A stretch of DNA of 64,000 bases from Methanosphaera sp. BMS (GCF_003268005.1 NZ_CP014213.1:1178001-1242000); one strand, 5' to 3'. Numbered from the stretch's first letter, positions 3,660 through 6,238 are shown. Made by a program: numbers and translations. Notes: a model not told the origin generated them from the letters alone.

Positions 3660-4700
3660 TTGAAAGTAATTGTTGATGGGTCAAACGTAGCATATTATGG
3701 ACAACAACCCAATGAAGAAACAGGAAAAATAACTCCAAGTCTTAAAACTCTAAAAGTGGCTATAAGCACTCTTGAAAAATTAGGACATGAACCAATAGTA
3801 TTAGCTGATGCACCATTACGACATGAAATTGATGATAAAGATAGCTTTAATGAAATGATTAAAAACGATGAGGTTTTCCCAGTACCTGCCGGAACCATCG
3901 CTGATCATTACATATTAAACTTAGCATATGAAAAAGATGCTAAAATATTATCAAATGATTTTTTCAGAGACTATCAGGATGAATTCCAAGATATTCCAAG
4001 CAGAAGACTACCATACAGAGTAAAAAACGGTAGATTCCAAATCGGTAAACCAGCACCACCTAAAAAAGTAAAAAATATACTTCAAAAAATCTGTTCTAAA
4101 TCATTAAACGAATTTGAAAGACGCGGATTTGATGTGTACAAATCCAAGAAAAACAGAAAATTCAGCGGATTAGCCGTTGCTCAGGAAGCAATCAGTAGAG
4201 TAAGCAATGAAGAAGACAATGCCATTGACTCCAAGTTAGAGAACGTATTCCTCAAGATACCTATTCTCAACAAGATGGTCGGATTTGTAGATGACGATAT
4301 GGAGGATTGCGACTTCCTAATATTCGTACTGGTAAATCCTAAAGACTATAAGGAAGCAGTACGTAACGCCGGGACCATTGCCGTAACGGTTAGAAACAAG
4401 TTGAACCTAGATCATTCTCCACTTGTAGCTGTGAGAAATGATTTGTTCACAAGACCGGGTACATTTGAATTGAACATAATCTACTCGGATGAAGTACTTG
4501 AAGAAAGTCCATATAACTTAAATATCATAATAAATGACTCAGACTACTCATTTATTAAACATAATTCAAGAAATATAGCAAGTACGCTAGCTTCAAGATT
4601 AGGAACATGGAAGTTTCCTATAGTATCAGTAAAACCAAGTATGTTAATGGAAAAACCAGGACAGTTTGAAATTTCTATTGAACGTGGAGGTAAGAGATAA
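3660..4700 (+). CDS. NYN (Zc3h12a-like) ribonuclease with duplicated C-terminal domain
   Basis: 346 residues. The N-terminal about 125 are a PIN-like NYN nuclease domain with acidic positions D6 (IVDGSNVAYYG), D82 (AGTIADHYI) and D100 (ILSNDFF), as in Zc3h12a-type endoribonucleases; RNA cleavage is inferred from these. Residues 130-200 are basic. Residues 217-274 and 285-340 look like two copies of one unnamed domain: both carry a hydrophobic strand, a DY, N..(T/N)IA.T...(K/R)L, then P.V.V and PG.FE. The start is TTG with GGTGAT 3 nt upstream. The stop abuts the ATG of the next gene, so the two proteins are probably made in concert. The target is unknown. Confidence 0.8.
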   Translation: MKVIVDGSNVAYYGQQPNEETGKITPSLKTLKVAISTLEKLGHEPIVLADAPLRHEIDDKDSFNEMIKNDEVFPVPAGTIADHYILNLAYEKDAKILSNDFFRDYQDEFQDIPSRRLPYRVKNGRFQIGKPAPPKKVKNILQKICSKSLNEFERRGFDVYKSKKNRKFSGLAVAQEAISRVSNEEDNAIDSKLENVFLKIPILNKMVGFVDDDMEDCDFLIFVLVNPKDYKEAVRNAGTIAVTVRNKLNLDHSPLVAVRNDLFTRPGTFELNIIYSDEVLEESPYNLNIIINDSDYSFIKHNSRNIASTLASRLGTWKFPIVSVKPSMLMEKPGQFEISIERGGKR

Positions 4701-5915
4701 ATGGCTTTTGACGGAATTACAAAAAGCCTTTTTAGCCGATTATTAAACAAAAAAGTTATCAGTATTGGTACTAAGTATTTTGCAACAAATGATTTGGAAA
4801 CAGAATATGTGGGCTTGATTAACCTGACAAAGACCATGCTCGTCGAGGTTGAGCCTGCTAAAATCAACAGCCAAAGCATATTTGAAAACCTGGAACGTGA
4901 AATTGACCAAAGAGACCTTCCGAAGAACAGGAAGTTTATCGAAATAAAGCCGGCAGATGATTCAATCAATGAATTTGCATTACTTAGTAATATCATAATG
5001 GGTAGTGACCGTTATCTATACATAGAACTTTTCATGCCTAATCGCATAATCGAGACATTCGCCAACATCATCATTGAAGCCAATGGAAAGATTATAGAAA
5101 GAAGCCATTCGGAGCTTGTAAGCCACATGCCATCTAAGAAAGAGGCAATCAGAATAGCTATCGAATTGATTAAACTGGGTATGAACAACAACTGTAACGT
5201 AAGGGCATCCGTTGGTATGACCGGAGCTGCATCCATTGAAAGGGCCATTGAAATGAACAATGAGATAGGCCAGGTATCGGGAGTAGCATTCACCAAGTTA
5301 GGTGGAGAATATGGAGTCATATTTGAAGAAAAGCCAACCGACAAGATGATACACCTTGCACCGGCAGAAATTGATAACTTCATGTACATCGATGCTAAGG
5401 ATTCAACGGGTTTTATTGCAAAGTACGGTAAGGACAAGCTCATTGAAATAATGAACGACATCAATGAGTACATTGCAACCGAAAGTAACGGTAAGATAGA
5501 AGGGTATCGTATCGGTGGAGACGACTTGATTATTAACTTCGCCAACAAGGAAATAGCACTCAAGACAGCACTTGATTGTGCATGGTACGCGTTAAACAAT
5601 AACCTTAACCTGCGTATAGGTATTGGAAAGTCAAGACGTGAAGCTGGTGAAAATGCACACCTGACCGACTCAATTAAAATACATGACGATACGCCCGTTA
5701 TCGTATTTGACATTGCTAACGGTAAATATGCATATTACATTCCTACACCATTTACCAGAAGTGCTTTGGAGTTTTTAGAAACCAAGAAGTTAACCATGAT
5801 AGGAGTATTCATATTTGTATTCCTGGCAACACTTATCGGATGGAATACCCAGAACACATGGCTGGGATTTGCCGCTATGATTATAGCAGTGTTGTTTGCA
5901 TCAATAACTAACTAA
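4701..5915 (+). CDS. Membrane protein with tandem palm (GGDEF/Cas10-like) domains, GGDD motif
   Basis: 404 residues. Residues 228-310 resemble a nucleotidyl-cyclase-type palm: YIDAKD (D231), a helix, then YRIGGDDLII with GGDD at 272-275 and LRIGIGKS at 304-311, the spacing of GGDEF and Cas10 palms. Residues 105-175 repeat the pattern without the metal motif: NGKI, SHSELV in place of GGDDLI, then NVRASVGM. This suggests an ancient duplication with one inactive half. The C-terminus has two hydrophobic helices (about 365-382 and 387-402). It is translationally coupled to the NYN ribonuclease upstream. Nucleotide chemistry is inference; the family name is unknown to me. Confidence 0.7.
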   Translation: MAFDGITKSLFSRLLNKKVISIGTKYFATNDLETEYVGLINLTKTMLVEVEPAKINSQSIFENLEREIDQRDLPKNRKFIEIKPADDSINEFALLSNIIMGSDRYLYIELFMPNRIIETFANIIIEANGKIIERSHSELVSHMPSKKEAIRIAIELIKLGMNNNCNVRASVGMTGAASIERAIEMNNEIGQVSGVAFTKLGGEYGVIFEEKPTDKMIHLAPAEIDNFMYIDAKDSTGFIAKYGKDKLIEIMNDINEYIATESNGKIEGYRIGGDDLIINFANKEIALKTALDCAWYALNNNLNLRIGIGKSRREAGENAHLTDSIKIHDDTPVIVFDIANGKYAYYIPTPFTRSALEFLETKKLTMIGVFIFVFLATLIGWNTQNTWLGFAAMIIAVLFASITN

Positions 5916-5920
5916 TATGG

Positions 5921-6238
5921 GTGATTATCATTAAAGCAGAACTTGAATCAAAATTATTTATATTATTACTGGTCGGTATAGTAGCAATAATGTTTGGTAG
6001 TGTTGCATCCATATTTATTCACATTGACAATATATTTGATAACACAAAAGATGGCGTTAGTGACATAGTATCCAATAATAACTCCAACTCCAACTATTAC
6101 AATTCATCAAGCTATAACTCAAATTACAGCTCAAAAAGTTACAACAGTTCATATAATGACTATGATGATGAAAATGCTACGTTATCCGATAGGATAAAAG
6201 AGTATTTGAATAAAATATTGAATAACAACGACAAATAA
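5921..6238 (+). CDS. Small membrane protein with Asn/Ser/Tyr-rich tail
   Basis: About 105 residues: one transmembrane helix (KLFILLLVGIVAIMFGSVAS), then a low-complexity Asn/Ser/Tyr segment and an amphipathic C-terminal helix (LSDRIKEYLNKILNN). I recognise no family. It starts 5 bases after the GGDD-palm gene, so it is the third gene of that run. The start is odd: GTG 5921 overlaps the GGTGAT Shine-Dalgarno, and the correctly spaced codon 4 nt after that site is ATT at 5930. Confidence 0.65.
   Translation: MIIIKAELESKLFILLLVGIVAIMFGSVASIFIHIDNIFDNTKDGVSDIVSNNNSNSNYYNSSSYNSNYSSKSYNSSYNDYDDENATLSDRIKEYLNKILNNNDK

Follow-up and report, generated by a model that had tools for sequence, protein, structure and literature searches.

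Does a predicted ribonuclease gene lying directly against the gene of a membrane-bound palm protein form part of a nucleotide signalling unit? The question arises in the genome of Methanosphaera sp. BMS, within a 64,000-nucleotide stretch that we refer to as the window. An earlier, sequence-only reading had pointed out there a NYN-type nuclease gene, a membrane protein with a GGDD palm and a small membrane protein, and proposed that the palm makes a nucleotide signal to which the RNase responds. The features on which the following analysis rests are these (window coordinates):

3660–4700, plus strand: gene of the NYN-partner protein (ORF of 346 aa, TTG start)
3660–4085, plus strand: predicted Zc3h12a-type NYN RNase domain, residues 1-142 (PF11977, E=6.9e-22; ZC3H12 structures matched by profile)
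4293–4490, plus strand: unit A of the partner C-terminal part, residues about 212-277, an unclassified domain with an RND motif
4491–4697, plus strand: unit B, residues about 278-346, a tandem repeat of unit A
4701–5915, plus strand: gene of the tandem-palm membrane protein (ORF of 404 aa)
4983–5336, plus strand: palm 1, residues 95-212, with a degenerate metal site (recognized by hhalign against palm 2, 98%)
5352–5750, plus strand: palm 2, residues 218-350, class-III-cyclase-like by PDB profile matches, hhalign and PycC models
5391–5393, plus strand: predicted first metal Asp, D231, invariant in 57/57
5508–5525, plus strand: R270-I-G-G-D-D275, the putative base-selecting position (R/K) and second metal Asp
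5790–5912, plus strand: two predicted C-terminal transmembrane helices, seen as two long hydrophobic segments kept in orthologues and as helices in a low-confidence model
5921–6238, plus strand: small membrane protein, bitopic and ending in an Asn/Ser-rich tail (probable start: the ATT at 5930; positional homologues exist)

The gene positions given in the sequence-only reading are accurate. The ATG of the palm gene, at 4701, follows the NYN stop with 0 bases between them, a GGAGGT sits within the 3' end of the NYN gene, and the small membrane ORF begins 5 bases beyond the palm gene. The TTG start of the NYN gene is itself preceded by a GGTGAT Shine-Dalgarno. Within 5921-5935, the GTG at 5921 that is called as the start of the small membrane ORF shares bases with a likely Shine-Dalgarno, GGGTGATT, and comparison of orthologues suggests that the true start is probably the ATT at 5930. 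The same position is apparently occupied by ATT in three further loci (L011, L012 and L017) and by ATA in another (L018), hinting at non-canonical start codons in Methanosphaera.

Conservation of the arrangement was assessed first by gene content. The palm protein has an orthologue in 148 of the 152 genomes of the phylum (Methanobacteria) and the NYN protein in 146 of 152, each as a single copy except for a palm gene split in one assembly. Genomes without them are mostly incomplete, although one that is 94% complete (G025) lacks both. Each of the 47 loci examined has the two genes side by side on the same strand, mostly separated by no more than about 15 bases or overlapping. Among 57 distinct palm sequences, D231, S235, G272, G273, D274 and D275 are invariant, and this set includes Methanopyrales sequences at about 23% identity; an orthologue of the palm is present in 5/5 Methanopyrales. 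Residue 270 is always basic, being R in 51/57 and K in 6/57; R is unusual for the class III base-selecting position discussed below. Such conservation of GGDD and D231, together with pairing at 47/47 loci, rules out chance for both the motif and the pairing. The NYN, palm and small membrane protein genes are thus a conserved gene unit across Methanobacteria, and the earlier view of a tight chromosomal unit outside CRISPR, combining a conserved palm that retains metal-binding residues with an RNase-bearing partner, is upheld. Two outcomes that would have counted against it, variation of GGDD among orthologues and only rare adjacency of the genes, did not occur.

What, then, is the partner? Its N-terminus scores 78.3 bits against PF11977, for which the cut-off is 23, and the catalytic set D6, N9, D82 and D100 is present in 32/32 orthologues. 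Judged by these features it is a true Zc3h12a-type domain, for which RNase activity is predicted. The same domain family and catalytic residues characterize the Regnase/ZC3H12A-type NYN RNases but, unlike those, the NYN domain here is fused to a C-terminal tandem domain. The latter comprises two copies of a unit of around 65 residues (hhalign of unit A against unit B, 98%), bears invariant P, Y, R-N-D, R, S-T and R residues, and has no relative in Pfam or the PDB. Among 396 genomes it was found in 146 Methanobacteria and 5/5 Methanopyrales, while 239 other archaea yielded one marginal match with E=0.004, about the level expected by chance.

The Methanopyrales are informative here. In 5/5 of these genomes the palm gene still follows the partner C-terminal domain, which here comes without a NYN domain, and a search for PF11977 proteins found none in any of the five. 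Since Methanopyrales keep the palm and the partner domain without the NYN, the oldest common unit is palm plus partner domain. The RNase therefore appears, on its phyletic distribution, to be lineage-specific, with the deepest conserved link that of the palm with the C-terminal domain of its partner; the distribution fits either gain of the NYN in Methanobacteria or its loss in Methanopyrales. The RNase-palm pairing that had first drawn attention to the locus is accordingly conserved within Methanobacteria but does not extend to Methanopyrales, whose version of the unit separates the core from the RNase.

The family of the palm protein was not evident from routine searches: Pfam, NCBIfam and single-sequence PDB searches gave no match. 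A profile of 24 orthologues, four of them from Methanopyrales, was therefore run on all PDB sequences. It returned seven distinct sequences at E values up to 10, every one a class III-type cyclase. The best was Rv1900c (E=1.6e-5), followed by Ma1120 (E 0.0017-0.0041), an adenylate/guanylate cyclase-family protein and then a cytidylate cyclase; a separate 33-member profile gave the identical five leading matches. GGDEF and Cas10 proteins, both represented in the PDB, were not returned by this search. Profile-profile comparison agrees. Palm 2 matched class III cyclases with hhalign at 95% (E 1.6e-8, score 54.6), and column-shuffled controls (n=20) scored no higher than 18.9. The corresponding figures were 10% for Cas10 and 8% for GGDEF, each from a shallow profile of 6 and 3 sequences, respectively. 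Likewise, the sole PADLOC matches of the palm were to PycC models, which represent the Pycsar cyclase (best 4e-5). The AlphaFold models, made from shallow alignments, are of low confidence (pLDDT 39 for the palm and 33 for the other model), but the strand order of the poor palm model and the Foldseek ranking, in which the top 8 structures are class III cyclases at E about 0.02-0.05, are consistent with a class III palm.

By profile comparison, then, the nearest detectable relatives of the palm are class III nucleotide cyclases. The expectation that it would lie closest to GGDEF, Cas10 or GTP cyclohydrolase III was not borne out and, with class III proteins the nearest relatives, a cyclic mononucleotide becomes the more plausible product to assume at first. 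The resemblance extends to detail. As in the class III cyclases (Rv1900c, Ma1120; PF00211) and PycC, the metal Asp of strand β1 is followed by S/T (YIDxxDST compared with FTDIVGST), the putative second metal Asp lies in a hairpin, a basic residue, though mostly R, stands where the base-selecting Lys would align and an RxGIG strand is present. Those enzymes work as paired palms, as this protein may. It differs from them in having GGDD rather than GDG and a shorter C-terminal part, in the fusion of its two palms, one of them degenerate, in a single chain and, as regards class III, in not being reached by PF00211 using single sequences. The canonical class III transition-state motif, N-x-x-x-R, falls in a region that could not be aligned, where E317-(R/N)-A319 is conserved instead, and the region beyond the GIG strand is short, resembling more the palms of GGDEF proteins or GTP cyclohydrolase III. 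The tandem nature of the protein is clear, since palm 2 matches palm 1 with hhalign at 98%. Palm 1 has lost the metal Asps, yet G172, T174, E180, R181, F197, K199, G201 and E203 are invariant in it. Invariant residues in a palm without the metal Asps would fit an active site shared between the two palms.

The neighbourhood offers a further clue. Most of the Methanobacteria inspected have the gene order NAC, phosphoesterase, NYN, palm, small membrane protein and argJ, with the phosphoesterase gene directly upstream of the NYN in 38 of the 44 Methanobacteria genomes having an orthologue (for example at L148:8432-9169). The genome containing the window has it relocated away from the pair, to G000:C1:417795-418511, and no orthologue turned up in genomes G010 and G015 or in several that belong to one genus (g10). 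The protein matches PF00149 (Metallophos) and its best PDB match is Rv0805 (7.6e-12), a mycobacterial cyclic-nucleotide (cAMP) phosphodiesterase. With the curated CpdA model it scores 51 bits, below the cut-off of 225, and we liken it to the Rv0805/CpdA cAMP phosphodiesterases solely in how it might work. In the small membrane protein at the other end of the unit, a short charged head is followed by a single hydrophobic helix and then by a tail rich in Asn, Ser and Thr, which should face outward on the inferred topology. Positional homologues occur in most Methanobacteria loci examined; no credible family for it was found in Pfam or NCBIfam.

We tentatively favour, as the best explanation of these observations while giving it less than an even chance, a class-III-like nucleotide cyclase bound to the membrane and matched with a cognate partner, vertically inherited in pseudomurein archaea and joined to an RNase in Methanobacteria. 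We infer the following mechanism. The palm protein would be an enzyme resembling class III cyclases, in which two palm domains are fused. Its C-terminal palm would supply the metal Asps (D231 and the GGDD at 272-275) and R/K270 in the place of the class III base-selecting Lys, while the degenerate N-terminal palm would contribute the rest of the active site in a pseudo-dimeric arrangement, in the manner of C1/C2 of mammalian adenylyl cyclase. Tethered to the membrane by its two C-terminal transmembrane helices, the protein would convert NTP, probably into a cyclic (mono)nucleotide, on an envelope or metabolic cue. The tandem C-terminal domain of the partner may bind the palm or its product, with the N-terminal NYN RNase the likely output in Methanobacteria, and the neighbouring Rv0805-like phosphoesterase of most relatives might remove the signal and reset the unit.

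Several lines of evidence favour a cyclase: the class III matches in PDB, hhalign and PADLOC searches, the metal Asps kept in 57/57, the basic residue at 270, the constant adjacency of the partner, the restriction of the partner's C-terminal domain to palm-bearing organisms, the upstream phosphoesterase in 38/44, and the report of cAMP in Methanothermobacter cited below. Against it stand the unalignable N-x-x-x-R and the short tail past the GIG strand. The Methanopyrales also lack the NYN, so that the RNase is dispensable to the unit, and the phosphoesterase is missing or unlinked in some pair-bearing lineages, including the genome of the window. Metallophosphoesterases, moreover, have many roles, and no cyclic-nucleotide receptor was identified.

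The main rival is that the palm is a sensor without turnover, holding an NTP or RNA in its conserved acidic pocket and serving as membrane anchor and regulator of the NYN, so that the unit would be a membrane-localized RNA-decay factor. We regard this as possible, though on balance somewhat unlikely. GdpP and CsrD provide precedents for degenerate palms with a binding rather than a catalytic role; here the metal site of palm 1 is lost, no class III transition-state motif was found, and the partner is a constant companion with an intact catalytic core in its NYN. However, binding rarely needs as much as the retention of D231, GGDD and a basic residue at 270 in 57/57 palms, down to about 23% identity, nor does an RNase anchor readily explain a palm retained in Methanopyrales without any NYN domain.

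It is less likely, indeed doubtful, that the product is something other than a cyclic mononucleotide, either a di- or oligonucleotide in the manner of GGDEF and Cas10 proteins, the idea of the sequence-only reading, or a GTP opened as by GTP cyclohydrolase III. The letters GGDD and a short GIG-x-E-A tail like that of GTP cyclohydrolase III and GGDEF proteins would suit such a product, as would the 61% obtained by hhalign with the second palm of GTP cyclohydrolase III (8% over its full length). That archaeal enzyme (ArfA, PF05165) also has tandem palms with a GGD motif in the second but, unlike the palm protein, reads GGDN and has no membrane segment. Membership of its family was rejected: PF05165 does not match the palm, and a real PF05165 gene lies elsewhere in the genome. 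Indeed, a separate, genuine GTP cyclohydrolase III gene is found in 13/13 Methanobacteria tested, so that the GTP-opening job is already taken. GGDEF diguanylate cyclases, Cas10/Csm1 and the mCpol of Panoptes share the palm fold and a GG(D/E)(D/E) hairpin, mCpol being likened by description only, but profiles favour class III, the 8-10% for GGDEF and Cas10 coming from 3 and 6 sequences. As to membership, the palm has GGDD, not GG(D/E)EF, and no PF00990 match to it was seen in the genomes tested; PF22335, for Cas10, misses the palm and finds no match in the genome of the window. Weak GGDEF matches in other genomes looked spurious. One in the present genome, outside the window (G000:C1:1359875-1360063), appears chance-like and falls inside an 8458-residue open frame encoding a giant protein.

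An improbable alternative is a housekeeping RNA-processing pair in a translation/RNA operon that would also account for the nearby phosphoesterase, the palm being a nucleotidyl-transferring enzyme of RNA repair or tailing comparable to Thg1, which belongs to the palm superfamily (PMC2904730). The NAC neighbour, the NYN RNase and the archaeal TGT (tRNA-guanine transglycosylase) that is also a neighbour in Methanothermobacter would all be at home in such an operon. Two transmembrane helices and, next door, a bitopic protein whose tail is rich in Asn and Ser would not, and the specific closeness to class III cyclases and the restriction to pseudomurein archaea argue against it too. Finally, a defence system akin to Pycsar, CBASS or Panoptes, in which a palm messenger made on virus infection would have the RNase kill or arrest the cell, shares the architecture of cyclase plus nuclease and could draw on the PADLOC matches being to Pycsar cyclase models alone, but is very improbable for genes that are single-copy, near-universal and not patchy, at a fixed NAC-argJ locus in most genomes examined, with no relatives found in the viral contigs searched and no PADLOC match for the NYN protein. 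A Pycsar system proper (PycC with a TIR/TM effector at a mobile locus) was likewise rejected, given only a weak PycC likeness at a near-universal fixed locus.

Returning to the cyclase with its partner, a fuller version can be envisaged: a complete circuit for nucleotide signalling at the membrane, confined to pseudomurein archaea, with a pseudo-heterodimeric single-chain class-III-like cyclase, a dedicated Rv0805-like phosphodiesterase, a partner whose new tandem domain senses the product or the cyclase, and NYN output in Methanobacteria. In this complete form we consider it unlikely. Were it true, the palm could account for the cAMP that has been reported from Methanothermobacter (Leichtling 1986, as cited in PMC8646023), for which no source enzyme was found identified in the literature searched, and a cyclic-nucleotide-linked RNase unit would belong to core physiology rather than defence. 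A 2005 census listed no class III cyclases in sequenced archaea save in one uncultivated crenarchaeote, plus diverged and probably inactive ORFs (PMC1183210). Archaeal second-messenger biology is thin, and a class-III-like palm that is near-universal and looks active offers a concrete candidate for testing. It occurs throughout Methanobacteria, a group that includes gut methanogens, and Methanopyrales, in the former beside an RNase and usually a phosphodiesterase-like gene.

The claim that the pair was new must be qualified. Lupo et al. (2025; PMC11915815) tabulated a matching pair, specific to pseudomurein archaea, as their cluster D: OG0001213, a Zc3h12a-like NYN ribonuclease, and OG0001214, a nucleotide cyclase with more than one TM segment. 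In the available part of their paper the cluster is considered probably uninvolved in pseudomurein synthesis and set aside as nucleic-acid metabolism or signalling, so that the pair was listed there but left unstudied. Annotation, TM count, synteny and organisms indicate that cluster D is very probably the present NYN-palm pair. The same part of the account mentions neither the tandem palm, the partner domain, the NYN-less Methanopyrales nor the phosphoesterase, and the literature searched contained no description of class III affinity with tandem palms, the partner domain, the Methanopyrales version or the phosphoesterase link. The NYN-palm unit may be an undescribed signalling or RNA-control unit. 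A parallel lies in Bacteroides fragilis, where a type III CRISPR-associated NYN has been studied as an RNA-processing nuclease (PMC11346440). There too a NYN RNase is encoded together with a palm enzyme making a nucleotide signal, an activity only predicted for our palm, but the context is CRISPR, and the nearest structures to that NYN are MARF1 and VPA0982, not Regnase (PMC11346440).

Anantharaman et al. (2010) described an archaeal GGDEF-like family typified by MK0296 (PMC2904730). That the palm belongs to it is doubtful, for one Methanopyrus genome has its palm at 101 kb and a GGDEF-like ORF at 285 kb, near the place expected of MK0296; with numbering taken from position, the two are probably different genes. 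The latter, a separate GGDEF-like palm ORF on the minus strand (L174, G163:C1:285200-286117), is possibly MK0296 itself.

Elsewhere in the window, upstream of NAC, a family-2 glycosyltransferase-like gene abuts that of another small membrane protein, DUF2304-like by eye (799-1860). The two are perhaps an envelope glycosylation pair.
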